Positions 53,838-64,000 of a stretch of DNA of 64,000 nt are shown here, in pieces. The DNA comes from Fibrobacter sp. UWB5 (GTDB lineage Bacteria; Fibrobacterota; Fibrobacteria; Fibrobacterales; Fibrobacteraceae). A model generated the notes under the pieces. The model saw only the letters and a list, made by a program, of their open reading frames with translations. It was not told the DNA's origin and did not search any database. Position 1 is the first letter of the stretch. Every line of letters begins with the position of its first letter. The stretch lies in the NCBI RefSeq assembly GCF_002210295.1, contig NZ_MWQH01000001.1, positions 186,001 to 250,000 of the forward strand, in the 5' to 3' direction. A program made the translations under genes and the position numbers.

Positions 53838-54182
53838 TTAATCTGCGCAAAGCCTGCTGAGTTCATCCTTCTTTTCGAGGATGGTGCCGAGCAGGCTTTT
53901 GTAATCCATATCGGTTTCGCTGCGGAGCAATTCAGTGATTTCTGCAACCGGCGTATAAATCGGCGTGAGCGAGAGGTTTCCGAGAACACCCTTTAGCGCA
54001 TGGGCGGCTTCGAAGGCGTTTTTTTTGTCTTTCGCGGCAATGGAATCCTTGAGCTTGTCGAAATTGCCCTCGCCGGGAATGGTCGCCACGAGCTTCAGGT
54101 ACAGGGCCTCGTTTCCGAAACAGCGTGCAAGCCCTTCGGCGGTATTTGCCCCAAAAGTGTTCAGTTTATCGACGGTTATCAT
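53838..54182 (-). CDS. Histidine phosphotransfer (Hpt) protein
   Basis: A 114-residue helical protein with the phosphorylation motif AAHALKGVLGNLSL (His near 62). It overlaps the GGDEF/EAL regulator gene by four bases. Because three hybrid kinases with C-terminal receiver domains lie across the divergent promoter, it is a good candidate for the relay between them and the REC domain of the regulator. Confidence 0.9.
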   Translation of the reverse strand: MITVDKLNTFGANTAEGLARCFGNEALYLKLVATIPGEGNFDKLKDSIAAKDKKNAFEAAHALKGVLGNLSLTPIYTPVAEITELLRSETDMDYKSLLGTILEKKDELSRLCAD

Positions 54183-55882
54183 GCGTCCCTCCGGTGTTCA
54201 AGTTCCTTTTCGATGAAGGGCTCAAAGTCCTTCGGCGGAACCGGTTTAGAGAAGTAGTAGCCCTGGATAATCTGGCAACCCATTTCCTTGAGTATTTTGA
54301 GTTGGGAGGCTGTTTCCACGCCTTCTGCCACGGCAGGAATCTTGAGGAATTTTGCAATGTCCGCTACCAGTTCCACGAGTTTCAGGTTGCGTTCGTCCTT
54401 TTCCATGTTGCGTACGAACGACATGTCGATTTTCAGGATATCGATGGGGAGCGTCGTAATCATGTTCAACGAAGAATATCCGGCGCCGAAATCGTCCATC
54501 TCGATGCGGAATCCCTTCTTGCGCAGGTTCTCGATGACTTCGATAAGGCGCTCCATGTTTTCGCAGTAGGCACTCTCGGTCACTTCAAGCATGTATTCTT
54601 CCGGTGAAAGGCCGTTTTCTTCGAGGAGCCGCATGAGTTTTGTTTCCAGTTCCGGATCCAGGATGTCAATGCGGGACACGTTCACGGAAACGGGTACCGT
54701 TACGCCGAATTCATCTTTCCATTTCCGAATTTGCTTTGCCACTTCGTTCCAGACAAAGTTGTCTATTTTTTGTATAAGCCCGTTCCCTTCGAACAGCGGA
54801 ATAAAGTCGCCCGGACTGATGAATCCTAGCGTCGGATGTATCCAGCGGATAAGGGCTTCTGCACTGGTGAGCCGCGGGGTGTCGCCTTCGATGTTAAACT
54901 TGGGCTGGTAATAGACAACCAGGTTCTTGTTGTCTATGGCGCTTTGCAAGTCGCGGATGAGTGTTTCCTCGAACATGTAGCGGGAATGCATCTCGTTGTT
55001 GTAGCGGGTGAACGATTGGCTTAGATCGCCACGGTTCTTGTCGCAGGCGGCTTTCGCGCGGTCGAACCAGGCCTCGATTTCTACGTTGCGGTCCACGTTT
55101 TCCCATAGGCCGCAGCGTACGCGGATGTGGTTTACCTCGAAGAATTCTGTAATGATTCCCTGGACAATGTCTCGGATGTTGTCGTAGTTTTCCTGGTGGG
55201 TCGCGAAGATGTAGAAGGTATCCGCATCCGCACGGCAGGCGATGGCGTTCATGGAGGCGAGTTCCTTTTGGAGCGCGCTGCCGATTTCTGCAAGCAGGTG
55301 GTCGCCGAAATCTCTGCCGCAAAATTCGTTCACCAAATGGAATTGCTCGATGTCGAAGACGATTGCGTCGCGGGAAATGTCCCTGCTCCACAGCTCGATT
55401 TGGCGGATGTATTCAAAGAAGTAGTCCTTGGTGTATAGGCCGGAAATATGATCGCGTTCCGTCTGGCGGATAATGTCCCTGTCTTCGCAGAGCTCGATAA
55501 TCCTTTCGCAGCGGGCGAGAACCACCTCGGGCATGTCGAAGGGTTTGGCGATAAAGTCGGCGGCGCCCAGTTTGAGGCTGCGGACTTCGGATTCCTTTTC
55601 GGAGGTCATCACGATGACCGGAATGCGCTTGAGTGTTTCGGTGGTTTCTCTTTTTTTCAGGAATTCAAACCCGTCCATCACGGGCATGAGCAGGTCCAAT
55701 AGGATAAGCGAAAACCGCTTGTCTTGTCTGGAGAGTGCTGCGAGAGCATCCTTGGCGTTGTCGGCATATTCGACGTCGTAGTTCACGGAAAGGATATTAC
55801 CCAGGATTTCGCGGTTTACCACCTCGTCGTCTACGATAAGGACGTGTCTTTTGATGGTAGTGATCTGGCGTAGTTTTTTCAT
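54179..55882 (-). CDS. Response regulator with degenerate GGDEF and intact EAL domain
   Basis: A 567-residue protein from the ATG at 55882. The N-terminal REC domain has phospho-Asp in LLDLLMPVMDG. The middle GGDEF-like domain reads ADADT in place of GGDEF, so it should not make cyclic di-GMP. The EAL domain keeps SAEALIRW, EVTES, DDFGAGYSS, LKIDMSF and AEGVE, so phosphodiesterase activity is likely. Output would be lower cyclic di-GMP upon phosphorylation. It is transcribed with Hpt and divergently from the hybrid kinases. Confidence 0.92.
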   Translation of the reverse strand: MKKLRQITTIKRHVLIVDDEVVNREILGNILSVNYDVEYADNAKDALAALSRQDKRFSLILLDLLMPVMDGFEFLKKRETTETLKRIPVIVMTSEKESEVRSLKLGAADFIAKPFDMPEVVLARCERIIELCEDRDIIRQTERDHISGLYTKDYFFEYIRQIELWSRDISRDAIVFDIEQFHLVNEFCGRDFGDHLLAEIGSALQKELASMNAIACRADADTFYIFATHQENYDNIRDIVQGIITEFFEVNHIRVRCGLWENVDRNVEIEAWFDRAKAACDKNRGDLSQSFTRYNNEMHSRYMFEETLIRDLQSAIDNKNLVVYYQPKFNIEGDTPRLTSAEALIRWIHPTLGFISPGDFIPLFEGNGLIQKIDNFVWNEVAKQIRKWKDEFGVTVPVSVNVSRIDILDPELETKLMRLLEENGLSPEEYMLEVTESAYCENMERLIEVIENLRKKGFRIEMDDFGAGYSSLNMITTLPIDILKIDMSFVRNMEKDERNLKLVELVADIAKFLKIPAVAEGVETASQLKILKEMGCQIIQGYYFSKPVPPKDFEPFIEKELEHRRDA

Positions 55883-56006
55883 TTGAAAAAATTCCTTGTA
55901 TCCGTAGATAAATATATGTAAAAAGAAACAAAAAAGTAACAACGTGCGCGACAAAGCGTTTTTTTTAGATATCTTTAAAACAGAATTACCAGAATACGAG
56001 GTCCCC

Positions 56007-58049
56007 ATGTTCGGTCGACACCTTCCCCTGAGCGAGCAGGCATTGCAAGTTATCGAGCAAATCGGCGAAGACATGCCGGGTGGCTTTTTTATTTACAAGG
56101 CGACAGGTAACGAGGAACTGCTTTACGCGAACAAGGCCGTGTTCAAGATTTTCGGCTGCGAAACGCTCGAGGAATTCAAGGAACTCACGGGTTACACTTT
56201 CAAGGGGATGCTTTGCCCGGACGACTACGAGAAGGTTTCTGGTTCCATTGTGGACCAGATCGAAAAAAGCCAGGGCAATCTGGATTACGTAGAATACCGC
56301 ATTGTCCGCAAGGATGGCAAGATCCGCTGGCTCGATGACTACGGCCATTACGTGAACTCCGATGTGTACGGCGGACTCTTCTACGTGTTTATTTCGGACA
56401 TTACCGAAAAGCGCGTACAGATGGAGGCGGACAAGGCCGTCTATACTGCGGTGATTGATGCGCTGAGTCGCGCCTACAATGCCGTGTGGCTTATCAATGA
56501 TATTGCGACCGGGAGCTTTTCGCTATTCCGTGCCGACACTTCCGAAGGCAGTATCCACGCAAGGCCCACCAAGGAGGCCTTGGAACTGCTCACCTACGAA
56601 GACGCCAAGGCGAACTACATCAAAAACTTTGTGGCCCCGTCGGACAGGGGGCGCTTGGAGAAGGAGCTGACGCTTGAAAACATTACCGCGAACACTTCCA
56701 GCAAGAAGGTTTTTGGCGTTGTGTTCAAGCGCGTCGTGGGCGACAAGGAATGCTATTACCGCATCGAGTTTGCACAGGTGCAGCTCCCCAACGGCAAGAC
56801 CGGCATTGTGGCGGGTTTCAAGGACGTGGACGAGGATGTTCGCAAGGAACAGGAAATACAGCAGGTGCTGCGCGATGCCATTGACACGGCGAATGCCTCC
56901 AGCAAGGCAAAGAGCGACTTCCTTTCGAGCATGAGCCATGACATCCGTACGCCCATGAACGGGATTATCGGCATGACGGCGATCGCGACCGCCCATCTGG
57001 ATGACCGGGAGCGTGTGGAGGACTGCCTCAAGAAAATTTCGGAAGCCTCGAGCCACTTGCTTTCGCTCATCAACGAGGTGCTTGACATGAACAAGATCGA
57101 GTCGGGCAAAGTGGAACTGAACGAGGAAAACTTCAACCTCTCGGAGCTTGTGAACACGCTGCTTGCCATGACCAAGGCTCAGCTCGAAAGCCACCGTCAC
57201 AAATTGAAGGTGAACATTGCGGATGTAATCCACGAAAATGTCATTGGCGATAGCCACCGCATTCAGCAGGTGTTCGTGAACTTGATGAGCAATGCTATCA
57301 AGTATACTCCCGATGGCGGGACCATCTCCTTGACGGTGGCGGAACGGCCTACCAACGCCCATGGTATAGCCTGCTATGAATTTGTCTTTGAAGACAATGG
57401 CATCGGCATGACAGAGGAGTTCCAGAAGCACCTGTTCGAGCCGTTCACGCGCGCAAACGACAAGAAGACTGCCGCTATACAGGGAACGGGGCTCGGTATG
57501 ACAATCTCGCAGAGTCTGGTGCGCATGATGGGTGGCGACATCCAAGTGAAAAGTAAGCCCGGAGAGGGCTCTCGCTTTACCGTCACTATCTACCTGAAGT
57601 TTGTGGACGTGCAGAATGCGGAACCCCACAAGGAAGACCCGCTCAAGAATCTGGAAGACTTGAAGTTCGAGGGCAAGCGCATCTTGCTGGTGGAAGACCA
57701 CCCGGTCAATGCGGAAATCGCGAAGAACGTGTTGCAAATGACGGGGCTCGAAGTGGAATGGGTCGTGGACGGCGAAGCGGCTGTAGAACGGATGGCAAAC
57801 AGCAAGGAAGGCGAATTCGACCTGGTGTTCATGGATATCCAGATGCCGAACATGGACGGCTACCAGGCGACGGCGGCCATCAGGGCCATGACGACCTACG
57901 CAAGGAGAATCCCCATCGTGGCGATGACCGCGAACGCCTTTGCCGACGATATCCGCAGGGCGAAGGAGGTTGGCATGAACGGTCATATTTCCAAGCCGCT
58001 GGACTTTAATGAATTGGCTAGAATCTTGCAGAAGTGGATAAGGGTGTAG
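56007..58049 (+). CDS. PAS-containing hybrid histidine kinase
   Basis: A 680-residue cytoplasmic kinase, start taken at 56007 because gaggtcccc precedes it; a GTG 63 bases upstream lacks an RBS. Two PAS-like regions (40-150 and 165-290) come first, then HisKA with His311 (SSMSHDIRTPMNG), HATPase (NLMSNAIKYTPDGG, DNGIGM, GTGLGM) and a REC domain (ILLVEDHPVNAEI, phospho-Asp in FMDIQMPNMDG). No membrane segment is visible. It starts a series of three hybrid kinases, five bases before the next gene. Confidence 0.93.
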   Translation: MFGRHLPLSEQALQVIEQIGEDMPGGFFIYKATGNEELLYANKAVFKIFGCETLEEFKELTGYTFKGMLCPDDYEKVSGSIVDQIEKSQGNLDYVEYRIVRKDGKIRWLDDYGHYVNSDVYGGLFYVFISDITEKRVQMEADKAVYTAVIDALSRAYNAVWLINDIATGSFSLFRADTSEGSIHARPTKEALELLTYEDAKANYIKNFVAPSDRGRLEKELTLENITANTSSKKVFGVVFKRVVGDKECYYRIEFAQVQLPNGKTGIVAGFKDVDEDVRKEQEIQQVLRDAIDTANASSKAKSDFLSSMSHDIRTPMNGIIGMTAIATAHLDDRERVEDCLKKISEASSHLLSLINEVLDMNKIESGKVELNEENFNLSELVNTLLAMTKAQLESHRHKLKVNIADVIHENVIGDSHRIQQVFVNLMSNAIKYTPDGGTISLTVAERPTNAHGIACYEFVFEDNGIGMTEEFQKHLFEPFTRANDKKTAAIQGTGLGMTISQSLVRMMGGDIQVKSKPGEGSRFTVTIYLKFVDVQNAEPHKEDPLKNLEDLKFEGKRILLVEDHPVNAEIAKNVLQMTGLEVEWVVDGEAAVERMANSKEGEFDLVFMDIQMPNMDGYQATAAIRAMTTYARRIPIVAMTANAFADDIRRAKEVGMNGHISKPLDFNELARILQKWIRV

Positions 58050-58053
58050 ATTT

Positions 58054-60978
58054 ATGTTGTTTGAAAAAGGTCAAAAATCTTGTGTCTTGTGCGCATGGGC
58101 GCTCTCCTTCGGGTGTGCGCTAGGCTGGGGCGCCTTCGTAATGCCCGCCACCACGCTCTTGCCGATTGCAGGCCCCCTAGGGACGGTTATCGCCCTCGTG
58201 CTTGGCGCCGCGCTGATGGGCGTTATTGCCTACAATTTCCATATCATGATGAACCGTATTCCCGGCACGGGGAGCGTGTTCTCCTTTACCAAGCAGCTTT
58301 TCGGTTACGACCATTCCTTCCTTTGCACCTGGGCCACGGCGCTTGCGTACTTGGCGGTACTGTGGGCCAACATGTCGGCCTTCGTGCTGTTTATCCGTTT
58401 CTTGTTCGGCCCCGTACTGCAAAGGGGATTCTGTTACAGCATCATGGGTTGCGAGGTTTGGGCAGGGGAACTGTTTACCACGCTTGCGATTATACTCCTG
58501 TTCGGATTTATCAGCTGCATGAATACGAATGTGCTGCGCTGGGTGAACACGGTGCTTGCGCTCCTGTTCTTTGGCGGTGTAGTGGGCCTGTTTGCAATTG
58601 TCGCCAGCAAGGGCGGAATAGACTTTTCGCACATGAGTCCGGCGTTTGCGACGGCGGGTACCGCGAAGGGGCATGCTCCCTTGATGCAGATTGTGAATGT
58701 GCTGGTGCTTGCCCCCTGGGCGTTTGTAGGCTTTGGCGTGGTGAGCTTTGCCTCTTCGACTTACCGGTTCAAGCCGAAATACAGTTTTGCGATTATGATG
58801 GCCGCCCTTGTTGCCGGTGCCATCGTCTATTCCCTCACCGCGCTGCTTTCGGTCTCGGTGACCCCCGCGAATTTTGGCGACTGGGAAGCTTATTTTACCA
58901 ACCTGAAGAACCTCAAGGGCATTGAATCTGTCCCGGTATTCCACGCCGTTTTCAAGACCCTCGGTAACGGCGGCTTTGTGCTGCTCGCCATCACCGTCAT
59001 GGCGGCCATTTCCACAAGCCTTCTTGGGCTTTACCGTTCGCTCGGGCGCATGTTCATGAGCCTTGCCAACGATTCCGTGATGCCGGCCTGGTTCGGGCAT
59101 ACTAACCGTCACGGCGCCACCAACCACAGCATTATCTACGTGATGCTTCTTTCCTGCATTATTCCGTTCTTCGGGAGAACCGCTATCGGTTGGATTGTAG
59201 ACATCACCTCCATCAGTGCCTCAATCATTTACCTGTATGTGTCTGCGGGTATTGTCAAGATGGCGCGCGGCGAGACTGGCAGGCGCAAGACGGTAATGAA
59301 CTTTACCGGAACGCTGGGCATCGTTATCTCAACGTTCTTCTTCTTCTTCCCGCTTACGCCGACGCTCTGGAACATGAATACCATTGCCACGGAATCCTTC
59401 ATGATTCTGATGGCGTGGAGCATTGTCGGGTTCATCGTCTACAGGGCAGTATTCATGCATGACCAGGAGAATCGATTTGGCAAGTCGGCCATTATGTGGG
59501 TGACTATGCTGTTCATATTGCTGTTCTCGGCCGTCATGTGGGAACGTCAAGTCACCAACGACGAAACCGAAGATGTCATTGCGCGCATTACCGAGTTCCA
59601 TACGGGATTGCACCAGAAGATGCATGTTCCCATGACCGAAGGCCAGATGCTTCAGGAAAAGAACTTCATGGAAGAGCAGATGGACCTTGTCCGCGATTCC
59701 CAGCTGAAGAACAACCTGGTAGAAACTCTCTTTATTGTCCTGTGTATCTTTATCGTGGTGAATATTTACCGCACGCAACAACAGCGCGAACAGAAACTTG
59801 ACCAAGAAAAGCATATCGCTGAGGAATCCAACAGGGCAAAGACCATATTCCTTTCGAACATGAGCCATGACCTGCGCACACCCATGAACGCGATTATCGG
59901 CTATACCAATCTGTCGCGCAAACCGGAGGCAAGCCCCGAACAAATCCAGAAATACTTGGCCAAGATCGATTCTTCGAACATGTACCTGATGGCCCTCATC
60001 AACGACATGCTCGAAATGAGCCGCATCGAAATCGGGAAGATGGAGCTGGAAGAGCGACCCACCGACCTGCGGAAAATGATGGACGAAATCCGTGACATGT
60101 TCGAGGCGCAGATGGTGGGCAAGAACATCGCCTTTGCCGTGAAATACGACGGCCTCAGGAACCCAGTGGTGCTCTGCGACAGGAACCGCATGAACCGCGT
60201 GATTCTGAACTTGGTCAGCAATTCCTTCAAGTTTACTTCGGAAGGCGGGCACGTGTCAGTGAGCCTCGTCGAAAAGGAATGTGTTGAAGAGGGCAAGGCT
60301 GCATTCGAAATCCGCGTGAAGGATGACGGCGTCGGCATTTCGCCCGAGTTTGCAGACCGCGTGTTCGATGCCTTCGAGCGTGAGCGTGTTTCGACCATCA
60401 GCGGCGTGCAGGGAACGGGCCTCGGGCTTGCGATTGCAAAGAACGTGGTGTCGTTGATGGGCGGGACGATCAAGTTTGAATCGACAGTCGGCAAGGGGAC
60501 GGAATTCTTCGTGAATGTGGTGCTGAAGACGGCCGCAGGCACGGATGTTCCCGAAAGCGACGGGCGCAATATTTCTTTTGCGGCCAAGGCGGATTTCACG
60601 AACATGCGCCTATTGCTGGTGGAAGACATGGAAGTGAATCGCGAACTGGCCAAAATCATTCTCGAAAGTCTCGGGTTCAAGGTCGAGATGGCGGTAAACG
60701 GCAAGCAGGCGGTCGAAATGGTGGAGAAGAACCCTGCCGGCTACTACAACGGGATTGTCATGGATATCCAGATGCCTGTGATGGACGGTTGCGAAGCGAG
60801 TCGCCAGATTCGTGCCATGCCCGACAAGAAAAAGGCCGGCGTTCCCATTATCGCCATGACCGCGAACGCCTTTGGCGATGACCTCAAGAAGTCGAAAGAT
60901 GCCGGCATGAACGCTCACCTGGCAAAGCCCATCGATGTCGGCATGCTCACGGAAACACTTGTGCAGTGGGTACGGTAG
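58054..60978 (+). CDS. APC-superfamily permease fused to a hybrid histidine kinase
   Basis: A 974-residue protein. Residues 1-480 form a full amino-acid/polyamine/organocation permease-like domain with about 12 membrane helices (GWGAFVMPATTLLPIAGPLG, RIPGTGSVFSFTKQLFGYDH, ISTSLLGLYRSLGRMFMSLANDSVMPAWFGHTN). A further membrane region and a helical segment of about 50 residues follow, with one more TM near 565. Then come HisKA (His605 in SNMSHDLRTPMNA), HATPase (NLVSNSFKFTSEGG, GTGLGLA) and REC (LLVEDMEVNREL, VMDIQMPVMDG). No separate sensor is present, so the permease itself probably senses its substrate. It is five bases after the PAS kinase and 20 before the third. Confidence 0.93.
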   Translation: MLFEKGQKSCVLCAWALSFGCALGWGAFVMPATTLLPIAGPLGTVIALVLGAALMGVIAYNFHIMMNRIPGTGSVFSFTKQLFGYDHSFLCTWATALAYLAVLWANMSAFVLFIRFLFGPVLQRGFCYSIMGCEVWAGELFTTLAIILLFGFISCMNTNVLRWVNTVLALLFFGGVVGLFAIVASKGGIDFSHMSPAFATAGTAKGHAPLMQIVNVLVLAPWAFVGFGVVSFASSTYRFKPKYSFAIMMAALVAGAIVYSLTALLSVSVTPANFGDWEAYFTNLKNLKGIESVPVFHAVFKTLGNGGFVLLAITVMAAISTSLLGLYRSLGRMFMSLANDSVMPAWFGHTNRHGATNHSIIYVMLLSCIIPFFGRTAIGWIVDITSISASIIYLYVSAGIVKMARGETGRRKTVMNFTGTLGIVISTFFFFFPLTPTLWNMNTIATESFMILMAWSIVGFIVYRAVFMHDQENRFGKSAIMWVTMLFILLFSAVMWERQVTNDETEDVIARITEFHTGLHQKMHVPMTEGQMLQEKNFMEEQMDLVRDSQLKNNLVETLFIVLCIFIVVNIYRTQQQREQKLDQEKHIAEESNRAKTIFLSNMSHDLRTPMNAIIGYTNLSRKPEASPEQIQKYLAKIDSSNMYLMALINDMLEMSRIEIGKMELEERPTDLRKMMDEIRDMFEAQMVGKNIAFAVKYDGLRNPVVLCDRNRMNRVILNLVSNSFKFTSEGGHVSVSLVEKECVEEGKAAFEIRVKDDGVGISPEFADRVFDAFERERVSTISGVQGTGLGLAIAKNVVSLMGGTIKFESTVGKGTEFFVNVVLKTAAGTDVPESDGRNISFAAKADFTNMRLLLVEDMEVNRELAKIILESLGFKVEMAVNGKQAVEMVEKNPAGYYNGIVMDIQMPVMDGCEASRQIRAMPDKKKAGVPIIAMTANAFGDDLKKSKDAGMNAHLAKPIDVGMLTETLVQWVR

Positions 60979-60997
60979 CAGAACACGGGAAGAAATT

Positions 60998-62872
60998 ATG
61001 ACTTATTCAATTATTGGCATCCTGGCGACAATCCTTTTGCTTATTGGCAACCGCGACGTGTTGCGGAAGCAGCGCGAGTCGGAGTATTCGCGTACCCGCC
61101 TGTATTACCGCCGATTCTTGCTTGGCGTGCTTGTGTACTACATCACCGACATGCTGTGGGGCTTGCTGGACGAACAACGCCTGACTAGCCTCCAGTTTAT
61201 CGATACTACCGTCTATTTCGTTGCCATGATAGCGACGGTCGTGCTGTGGGCGCGCTACGTGGTGTCTTATCTCAACCGCAAGAATTTTTTCGAAAAGTGG
61301 CTCTTGCGCACGGGACAAGCCATCTTCGGTGTATTCCTTATCTTTATCGTCATCAATTTCTTCTATCCGGTGTTTTTCTGGTTCGATGACCAAGGCGTTT
61401 ACCACACCGCATTCATGCGGCATGCGGCACTTTTGGTACAAATTGCGATGTTCCTTTCTACATCAATCTATACTTTTTACATGACCGCGAAGACGCAGGG
61501 CGATATTCGTCAACGGCACTTGACTATCGGGCTTTTTGGTCTTGCCATGGTGGTGATGATAGCCTTCCAGGTGTTCTTCCCCCTGTGGCCCTTCTATGCG
61601 ATGGGCTGCATGATCGGCATAACCCTCTTGCATAGCTTTGTGCTCGAAGACGAAACGGAAGAATACCGCCGCGAACTGGAGCGGAGCCGCGAGGCGCTCA
61701 AGGAAGCACTAGCTGCCGCCGAAAAGGCAAGCAAGGCGAAGACGGTGTTTCTTTCCAACATGAGCCACGAAATCCGCACGCCCTTGAACGCCATCATCGG
61801 ACTCAATAGTATCGCCATGAACGATGCCGACCTTTCGCAGACAACGAGGGAGCACCTGCAGAAAATCGGGACATCGGCACAGCATTTGCTGGGTGTCATC
61901 AATGACATTCTAGATATCAGCCGTATCGAATCGGGCAGCATGTCGCTCAAGAATGCGGAATTCTCGTTCGTGCAAGAACTCGAGCAGGTGAACGCCATCG
62001 TGACGGCGCAGTGCCACGACAAGAAAATCCGTTACAGTTGCGATGTGAAGGACGGGGTGTCCAACTGCTATATCGGCGACGAGATGAAACTCAGACAGGT
62101 GCTGATAAACATTCTCGGGAATGCCGTCAAGTTCACTCCCGAAGGCGGCTCCGTTTCGCTTGTGGTGGAAGCGCTCGCGGTCGACGGGGAAAAATGCCCC
62201 CTGCGCTTTACCGTAGTAGATTCGGGAATCGGTATCGGCAAGGACTTTATGCCGCGCATGTTCGAAGCTTTTGCGCTGGAAGACGAATCCTACACCAGCA
62301 AGCACGGCAGTACGGGCCTAGGGCTTTCTATTACCAAGAGCATCGTGGAACTGATGGATGGGCGCATCGATGTGGAAAGCGAGAAGGGCGTCGGTTCCAA
62401 GTTCACCGTTACCGTCACGCTACAGAAGTCTCCGCACAATGGAGGTGGACTTTGCTCGTCGGGCGGACAGCGCGAAAAACCGCGCGCGACACTTTCCGGA
62501 AGAAAGGTGCTGCTCGCCGAAGATCTCCCTGTAAATGCGGAAATTATGGCGATGGTGCTTTCGATGCGTGAGATGAAGGCGGAACGTGCAGAAAACGGGC
62601 GCATTGCCGTAGAGATGTTCAAGTCGCATGAACCGGGCTACTATTCCGCAATCCTTATGGACGTGCGCATGCCCGAGATGGATGGCCTCGAGGCGACACG
62701 CGTCATCCGTTCCATGGACCGCGAAGACGCGAAGAGCATCCCCATTATCGCGCTCACCGCGAACGCCTTCGATGAGGACGTGCAGAACAGCCTGCAGGCC
62801 GGCCTGAACGCGCACTTGAGCAAGCCCGTGGAACCCGACGTACTCTTCAAGACGCTCGAGGAATTGCTGTAA
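60998..62872 (+). CDS. Hybrid histidine kinase with multi-TM N-terminus
   Basis: A 624-residue kinase, start at 60998 (gggaag upstream). About seven membrane helices span 1-215, similar in layout to 7TM receptor kinases. A short coiled coil (EYRRELERSREALKEALAAAEKASKAK) links to HisKA with His257 (SNMSHEIRTPLNA), HATPase (NILGNAVKFTPEGG, GSTGLGLS) and REC (VLLAEDLPVNAEI, LMDVRMPEMDG). It is the third kinase of the run. A dyad and a terminator follow before the TonB-receptor gene. Confidence 0.93.
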   Translation: MTYSIIGILATILLLIGNRDVLRKQRESEYSRTRLYYRRFLLGVLVYYITDMLWGLLDEQRLTSLQFIDTTVYFVAMIATVVLWARYVVSYLNRKNFFEKWLLRTGQAIFGVFLIFIVINFFYPVFFWFDDQGVYHTAFMRHAALLVQIAMFLSTSIYTFYMTAKTQGDIRQRHLTIGLFGLAMVVMIAFQVFFPLWPFYAMGCMIGITLLHSFVLEDETEEYRRELERSREALKEALAAAEKASKAKTVFLSNMSHEIRTPLNAIIGLNSIAMNDADLSQTTREHLQKIGTSAQHLLGVINDILDISRIESGSMSLKNAEFSFVQELEQVNAIVTAQCHDKKIRYSCDVKDGVSNCYIGDEMKLRQVLINILGNAVKFTPEGGSVSLVVEALAVDGEKCPLRFTVVDSGIGIGKDFMPRMFEAFALEDESYTSKHGSTGLGLSITKSIVELMDGRIDVESEKGVGSKFTVTVTLQKSPHNGGGLCSSGGQREKPRATLSGRKVLLAEDLPVNAEIMAMVLSMREMKAERAENGRIAVEMFKSHEPGYYSAILMDVRMPEMDGLEATRVIRSMDREDAKSIPIIALTANAFDEDVQNSLQAGLNAHLSKPVEPDVLFKTLEELL

Positions 62873-62893
62873 TCCATATTTTTTTAGGTGAAG

Positions 62894-62927
62894 GTAACAC
62901 ATTTCGTTCCTTCGGGTGTTACAATGG
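62894..62927 (+). promoter_or_regulatory. Dyad GTAACAC-N15-GTGTTAC-AATGG, copy upstream of the TonB-receptor gene
   Basis: gtaacac (62894-62900), 15 bases, gtgttac (62916-62922), then aatgg. Matches the element at 50137-50170 in both arms, spacing and trailing bases. Confidence 0.55.
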
Positions 62928-62956
62928 CAAATAGGGCCTCCTATTTGCTATTTTTT
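62927..62956 (+). terminator. Hairpin terminator between kinase operon and TonB-receptor gene
   Basis: Perfect nine-pair stem gcaaatagg-gcct-cctatttgc followed by tatttttt. If the promoter-like dyad just upstream is used, this would act as an attenuator for the receptor gene. Confidence 0.75.
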
Positions 62957-64000
62957 GTGAGAACGCGAGTTATTTTGAAACGTTATATTGAAATTTTCGT
63001 TTTGTTGCTGGCTATATTGAGTGTAGCCGCCGTGGCACAAGAACCTGTGCCCGATTCGCTTGCACCCCAAGGAATCACCTTTAACGGAATCGTGCAGGAT
63101 TCCTCGTTTGCCCCAGGCGAAAAACTCAATGTCGAAATCCTGGAATCGGGCGAGGCGCTGCAAACCACCGTGGGCACGCCCTTTAGCATTGTGCTTCCCG
63201 AAGATACCCTTTGGAATGTGTGCGTCACGAATTCGGACACGGCGGGCGCCGAAAAAGAAAAATGCTACGAACTCAAGTACATTGGCGCTGAACGCAGTTT
63301 CTCGCAGGCCCTCGGCGAAGCATTCGCTGAACCCGATTCTATAGTAGAAGGGGAAGGCCTTCCCCTCGCTGCTGCCGCTGACACGGCATCCGCTACCCCT
63401 TCTAGCGGGGTCGCCCCGCAACGCCCCGACTCGTTGGCAAAAGATACTTTGGCGCAAGATTCCGCAAGCCAAGACGTCGATGTCGACGCCCTCCTCGCTG
63501 GCGGCGACAATGCCAAGGTGACCGAACTCAAGAAAGTCGTGGTGCAGCTGCGCCGTCGCCCCAAGCGTAAGCCCGGCGAATCTGTGGTGTCGGCTAAGTC
63601 CATCAAGCGTATGCCCAGCCTCGCCGAAGCCGACGTCATCAAGAGTATCCAGGCGCTCCCGGGCGTGGTCGCCAGCTCCGATTTCAGCTCCAAGATTTAT
63701 GTGCGCGGTGGCGCCGCCGACCAGAACCTCTTCCTGTTCGACAACGCGGTCGTTTACTCTCCGGTGCATTTCTTCGGACTGTTCAGTACCTTCCTGGTCG
63801 AAGGCATTGATGACGTGCAATTCTACAAGAGTGGTTTCCCGGCGCAGTATGGTAACCGCCTGAGTTCCGTGCTCAAGATGGATGGCCGCGCCGGCGGTCA
63901 GGATACCGTCAATGAATGGTTCAGCAAGTCAAGCATCAAGATCAGTACGTTTGCGGCGCAACTCCATACCGAAGGCCATCAGGGTCCTGCACGCTGGGTG
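62957..64000 (+). CDS. TonB-dependent receptor, N-terminal part (cut by window end)
   Basis: The frame is open from the GTG at 62957 through base 64000; a TTG at 62975 (MKRYIEIFVLLLAILSVAAVA) is an equally good start and clears the hairpin. The signal peptide ends near AVAQ. Residues about 30-120 look like a carboxypeptidase-like regulatory domain, followed by a proline/serine/aspartate-rich linker. The plug domain begins around 205 (RMPSLAEADVIKSIQALPGV, KIYVRGGAADQNLFLFDNA, GFPAQYGNRLSSV). It acts in the outer membrane; the cargo is unknown. Confidence 0.85.
   Translation, partial: MRTRVILKRYIEIFVLLLAILSVAAVAQEPVPDSLAPQGITFNGIVQDSSFAPGEKLNVEILESGEALQTTVGTPFSIVLPEDTLWNVCVTNSDTAGAEKEKCYELKYIGAERSFSQALGEAFAEPDSIVEGEGLPLAAAADTASATPSSGVAPQRPDSLAKDTLAQDSASQDVDVDALLAGGDNAKVTELKKVVVQLRRRPKRKPGESVVSAKSIKRMPSLAEADVIKSIQALPGVVASSDFSSKIYVRGGAADQNLFLFDNAVVYSPVHFFGLFSTFLVEGIDDVQFYKSGFPAQYGNRLSSVLKMDGRAGGQDTVNEWFSKSSIKISTFAAQLHTEGHQGPARWV

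Follow-up and report, generated by a model that had tools for sequence, protein, structure and literature searches.

What does a cell gain from a protein that carries, on one chain, an amino-acid permease and a complete hybrid histidine kinase? The question is raised by a 974-residue protein of Fibrobacter sp. UWB5 (genome of 3.36 Mb), encoded in the 64,000-nucleotide stretch of DNA analysed here (the window). Fusions of transporters with kinases have been described as the SLC5-STAC histidine kinases CbrA, CrbS and RpuS (PMC7096432, PMC9100948, PMC13022988), and in Ks-Amt5 of Kuenenia ammonium is bound but not translocated, the fused kinase giving the signal (PMC5764959, PMC8534201). A preliminary description of the locus had recognised an APC-type permease fused to a hybrid kinase, had likened it to CbrA, noting rightly that such fusions are known with SLC5, had placed one extra transmembrane helix (TM) at the joint and had supposed that uptake or occupancy would be coupled to signalling. 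The fusion and the CbrA analogy stand, whereas the joint does not. The description was also incomplete, in that the protein belongs to a large multi-phylum family, and a probable output through an Hpt protein and an EAL-type phosphodiesterase went unnoticed. The reading that we favour, as probable rather than assured, is that of a one-chain membrane receptor or transceptor, in which the APC permease, of LeuT fold, senses the ligand for the hybrid histidine kinase.

Four Pfam matches, each exceeding its gathering score, account for most of the chain: AA_permease_2 at residues 14-455, HisKA at 596-659, HATPase_c at 709-822 and Response_reg at 854-968. The first (PF13520; E 9.5e-22, 77.9 bits against a cut-off of 27) spans the whole permease core. 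The catalytic residues H605, N723, D757/G759/G761, G787-G791, D858, D904 and K958 are all present and are invariant in a 53-member alignment of relatives, so that the C-terminal half has the HisKA, HATPase_c and receiver domains and every catalytic residue of a hybrid histidine kinase. The Pfam scan of the protein gave neither an SLC5, a STAC nor an Amt match, the transporter part matching AA_permease families only, and among the NCBIfam matches listed no family names a permease-kinase fusion. The features of the locus are collected in Table 1.

Table 1. Genes of the locus and parts of the permease kinase, in window coordinates
Feature	Position	Strand	Basis or remark
Stand-alone Hpt protein, 114 aa, HxxKG motif	53838..54182	-	Pfam, motif check, genome scan
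Receiver-GGDEF(degenerate)-EAL(intact) response regulator	54179..55882	-	567 aa from the start used in Fibrobacter relatives; frame open up to 56074
PAS-HisKA-HATPase-receiver hybrid kinase	55944..58049	+	4 nt separate its end from the permease kinase; ATG at about 56007 as alternative start
APC permease-TM hairpin-hybrid histidine kinase, 974 aa	58054..60978	+	ORF (ATG at 58054, stop ends at 60978), Pfam, genus orthologues, AF2 models
APC (AA_permease_2) permease, 12 TM, LeuT fold, aa 1-470	58054..59463	+	Pfam; AF2; AdiC Z 38.2
TM1 break motif G24-W25-G26	58123..58131	+	W25 invariant in 51 representatives, at the place of AdiC Ser26
TM6 residue 228, Gly in the 974-aa protein	58735..58737	+	Aligned with AdiC Glu208; 49 of 51 representatives have Glu
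TM13, aa 479-499	59488..59550	+	Predicted
Extracytoplasmic loop of the hairpin, aa 500-554	59551..59715	+	No position conserved at >=90%
TM14 and helical linker unbroken into the kinase, aa 555-595	59716..59838	+	Predicted helix 529-621
HisKA domain, phospho-acceptor His605	59839..60030	+	Pfam, residue check
HATPase_c domain	60178..60519	+	Pfam
Receiver domain, phospho-acceptor Asp904	60613..60957	+	Pfam, residue check

The AF2 model of residues 1-585 (pLDDT 84, pTM 0.85) is a 12-helix permease with TM1 broken at 22/26 and TM6 at 217/220, as in the LeuT fold. Its best structural matches in the PDB are AdiC (over 425 residues, 3.5 A), SLC7A10, CAT4, CAT1 and ApcT; a search of PDB sequences with the family profile matched CAT1, CAT4, GkApcT and AdiC, and a single-sequence phmmer search of the PDB found nothing. 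With predicted helices covering residues 5-468 and the long AdiC match, the core helices of the permease are kept, and the joining of a full permease to a complete hybrid kinase, as first described, is confirmed by Pfam, catalytic residues and model alike. At the joint two membrane helices are predicted (about 479-499 and 555-575), a hairpin that flanks an extracytoplasmic loop of about 55 residues, and in the full-length model a single helix, residues 529-621, starts outside the membrane and continues into the kinase as its DHp helix. A 12-TM permease usually has both termini inside the cell (N-in/C-in), so that one extra helix would leave the kinase outside and two are needed to bring it into the cytoplasm; the single helix proposed earlier was therefore rejected.

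Conservation in the family is highest in the helices of the substrate site. TM1 leads, with 68% of its positions conserved at at least 90%, and the corresponding share is 36-43% in TM3, TM6, TM10, TM12 and TM13 and zero in the hairpin loop. A comparison of the substrate residues with AdiC had been suggested in the preliminary description; according to a low-identity profile alignment, perhaps shifted by one residue in TM3, the AdiC gate residues Y93, W202 and Y365 (PMC6199258) are retained in the family as Y99, W222 and Y393. Two positions differ. The TM1 motif is GWG, with Trp in place of the carboxylate-binding Ser26 of AdiC, and hence an AdiC-like binding of amino acids is not assured. The second is residue 228, where the Glu of nearly all representatives (E228) has become Gly in the 974-residue protein; since transport by AdiC is severely impaired when Ala or Asp replaces Glu208 (PMC6199258), we infer that the Fibrobacter type may be a receptor only, sensing occupancy without efficient transport, and that occupancy sensing is more likely than uptake coupling in this protein.

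These residues bear directly on the possibility that the permease is an active amino-acid transporter, whose flux would be reported by the kinase, as proposed for BceS-type systems, or whose transport would run parallel to signalling, as in CbrA, the SLC5 domain of which transports histidine (PMC7096432). The complete core and the AdiC-like fold would suit such a function, and so would the close relatives of the same subfamily that exist as free-standing, transporter-like proteins of 466-490 aa (about 500 bits to the profile). It is opposed by the missing TM6 Glu of the Fibrobacter type and by a feature of TM5. The TM5 lysine of CAT/ApcT transporters is involved in proton coupling. In the profile alignment the lysine of GkApcT (5oqt, in VAIKVA) falls on a residue other than lysine. 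Active transport is on this balance unlikely.

The permease could also be a vestigial membrane anchor, the kinase sensing through the extracytoplasmic loop or through a partner protein. TM13, loop and TM14 would by themselves make an ordinary two-TM sensor module, and a potential partner exists in the rhodanese lipoprotein whose gene adjoins that of most Selenomonadaceae and Oscillibacter relatives. However, not one position is conserved in the loop, and TM1, TM3, TM6 and TM10 rank with the best-conserved regions of the permease; in a second Fibrobacter type (about 941 aa, 37% permease identity, far off in the permease tree) the loop is much shorter, almost absent; and between the 974-residue protein and five relatives of the genus dN/dS is 0.08-0.14 in the permease region and 0.05-0.11 in the kinase, which indicates purifying selection on both halves. 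The hairpin loop is thus disfavoured as a ligand sensor, and a mere anchor is improbable. The sensing role of the permease is favoured, conversely, by the concentration of conservation in the substrate-site helices, by purifying selection together with the retention of the AdiC gate residues, and by the continuous helix that links the extracytoplasmic loop to the kinase.

A candidate output lies next to the kinase genes, from which it is divergent. The coding regions of the Hpt protein and the receiver-GGDEF-EAL regulator overlap by 4 nt, and since the GGDEF site of the regulator is degenerate (RADADTF) and all its EAL catalytic motifs are intact, it should be a c-di-GMP phosphodiesterase. At the Fibrobacter loci the pair adjoins the permease kinase, as it does at each of the eight actinobacterial loci for which flanking sequence is available; at one of these eight only a fragment of the regulator remains at the contig end. 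The pair is also found beside a permease-GGDEF fusion of a Clostridiales genome. The single Hpt gene of the Olsenella genome adjoins the permease kinase, and of the four Hpt in Fibrobacter sp. UWB5 only that of Table 1 is a stand-alone frame. This scarcity, combined with the adjacency in separate phyla, makes a chance association unlikely, and the recurrence of the pair across phyla speaks for a c-di-GMP output. Treponema and most Bacillota loci are without the pair, so the output would differ between lineages and is not universal.

The locus in the window holds two further hybrid kinases, which might also signal through this Hpt and regulator. In particular, the pair might serve the PAS hybrid kinase and not the permease kinase, for the PAS kinase sits between the two and similar PAS kinases adjoin the permease kinase in some Bacillota. 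That assignment is quite improbable given the actinobacterial loci, where Hpt is directly upstream of the permease kinase and usually no other kinase gene occurs in the stretch, and given two Fibrobacter relatives (L046:5658-5996 and L048:5616-5996) in which the PAS kinase is reduced to an in-frame remnant of 112-126 aa, its start joined to the end of its receiver, and the permease kinase, Hpt and EAL regulator are kept.

If the permease is the receptor of this system, a sequence of events can be proposed on the basis of sequence and structure prediction, from which the architecture, the intact catalytic residues, the conservation pattern, the fold and the cross-phylum neighbours are all derived. 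An amino acid or related amine would bind between the broken TM1 and TM6, and the rocking of the permease would pass through TM12-TM13, the hairpin and TM14 into the DHp helix, and kinase or phosphatase activity would change. The phosphate would travel from His605 to Asp904, then to the stand-alone Hpt and to the receiver of the GGDEF-EAL protein, whose phosphorylation would alter c-di-GMP hydrolysis. Nutrient binding would in this manner probably be turned directly into a lifestyle signal by a c-di-GMP-degrading enzyme.

That a frame or assembly error joined two genes, the danger named at the outset, is excluded, since the same single frame occurs in 10 other genomes of the genus with at least 86% permease identity (full 978 codons in nine, the tenth ending at 887 by a contig end) and the same architecture recurs across several phyla. 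The survey of homologues that had been called for was made by searching GTDB genomes with an alignment of the permease alone, and 457 relatives were confirmed. Among the best 80, which were fetched, 69 have the complete order permease-hairpin-kinase-receiver; of the others, nine stop short at contig ends, the frame of L051 is broken, and L081 is a permease-hairpin-GGDEF protein. Their sources are Fibrobacterota (Fibrobacter), Treponema, Coriobacteria and several families of Bacillota, with many from rumen. Retention of the architecture among relatives selected by the permease alone, with the exceptions explained, argues for the receptor reading. The permease tree groups the 974-residue protein with Treponema in one clade (100/100), to which the actinobacterial clade is adjacent. 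In a quick tree the kinase parts cluster together with few outsiders, as one old fusion would give, although the cluster also takes in two other Fibrobacter kinases.

The family is not restricted to hybrid kinases. Of 121 Selenomonadaceae genomes, 46 encode this permease in a frame of 800 codons or more, and Selenomonadaceae also have tandem receiver-less permease-kinases of 810-850 aa and tandem permease-GGDEF proteins. Some of the receiver-less relatives have degenerate kinase domains, and these count against the receptor-kinase reading. In the permease-hairpin-GGDEF fusions (L081:2541-4769, L127:3294-4256 and L132:1957-8158) a diguanylate cyclase replaces the kinase, so that the same sensor would be tied directly to c-di-GMP. 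Judged by its occurrence with kinases, with receiver-less kinases, with GGDEF domains and free-standing, the permease behaves as an exchangeable input module.

The tandem receiver-less proteins were seen in L129, L130, L135 and L136, with degenerate HisKA/HATPase motifs in some, and in L135 and L136 a receiver-CheB protein adjoins them; the arrangement suggests a heterodimeric pair whose output is of the chemotaxis type.

Compared with CbrA, CrbS and RpuS, the permease kinase likewise has an N-terminal LeuT-fold transporter domain and a histidine kinase in one chain. It differs in having an AA_permease_2 (APC) domain with a TM hairpin and a continuous helix, where those proteins have SLC5 and STAC, in its Hpt/EAL-regulator neighbours, conserved in two lineages, and in its occurrence in other phyla. 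With Ks-Amt5 it has in common a transporter-fold domain as the receptor of a fused kinase; the Amt fold is unrelated and trimeric, with no TM hairpin described, and binding without transport has been demonstrated there whereas it is only proposed for the Fibrobacter type. The fold, the broken TM1 and TM6 and the gate residues are those of AdiC, GkApcT and CAT; unlike these, the permease kinase has Trp within the TM1 motif that reads GSG in AdiC, has fused signalling domains and, in the Fibrobacter type, has lost the TM6 Glu. Yeast Gap1-type transceptors also use an APC-type permease as nutrient receptor, in eukaryotes and with no fused kinase, and provide a general analogy. The permease kinase is outside the SLC5/STAC and Amt definitions, yet by analogy it would work along the same broad lines. 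In the open-licence literature searched we found no account of an APC-kinase fusion, in agreement with the initial remark that the APC form is less familiar.

Transporter-kinase fusions have been treated as rare, with few examples on the SLC5 side and Ks-Amt5 on the Amt side. Here a well-studied amino-acid transporter fold would act as receptor in hundreds of genomes of several phyla, in an apparently undescribed large family of rumen and gut bacteria, and the finding suggests that rumen bacteria couple amino-acid sensing to c-di-GMP. Tentatively, and with more doubt than confidence, we would go further and see a widespread class of APC-fold receptors of gut and rumen, one permease subfamily being the exchangeable input for plain and hybrid kinases as well as for diguanylate cyclases and tying c-di-GMP to the amino acids available, and the Fibrobacter permease having given up transport as a dedicated receptor. 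Sister permeases that stand alone, fusions to kinases and to cyclases, and a branch with an altered site form a natural series, by which the evolution from transporter to receptor and the choice between occupancy and flux signalling become directly testable.

Gene context was examined for the substrate, and the free-standing sister permeases adjoin housekeeping genes. A distant free-standing relative of 516 aa with the motif GWGW (L133:4267-5817) is flanked by an ArgD-like aminotransferase and iron-type alcohol dehydrogenases, a possible hint at the substrate; taurine use was dropped as an explanation of this context, the NCBIfam matches to sulfoacetaldehyde reductase being all below the cut-off. 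In 28 Selenomonadaceae or Oscillibacter-type loci the gene of a rhodanese-domain protein adjoins the permease kinase, mostly directly downstream (L074:8853-9554; also L068, L069, L078, L090 and L119). These proteins have one or two rhodanese domains and mostly a lipoprotein-like signal sequence, and would be possible partners or regulated genes, with a hint at sulfur chemistry. The third hybrid kinase of the locus (window 60935-62872) likely starts at the ATG at 60998, after GGGAAGAAATT, and not at the overlapping 60935; in several relatives (L046, L048, L049 and L050) the place directly after the permease kinase is taken by a different hybrid kinase of about 1030 aa. The frame at 62888-64000 runs off the window, and its translation resembles a TonB-dependent receptor with plug region.
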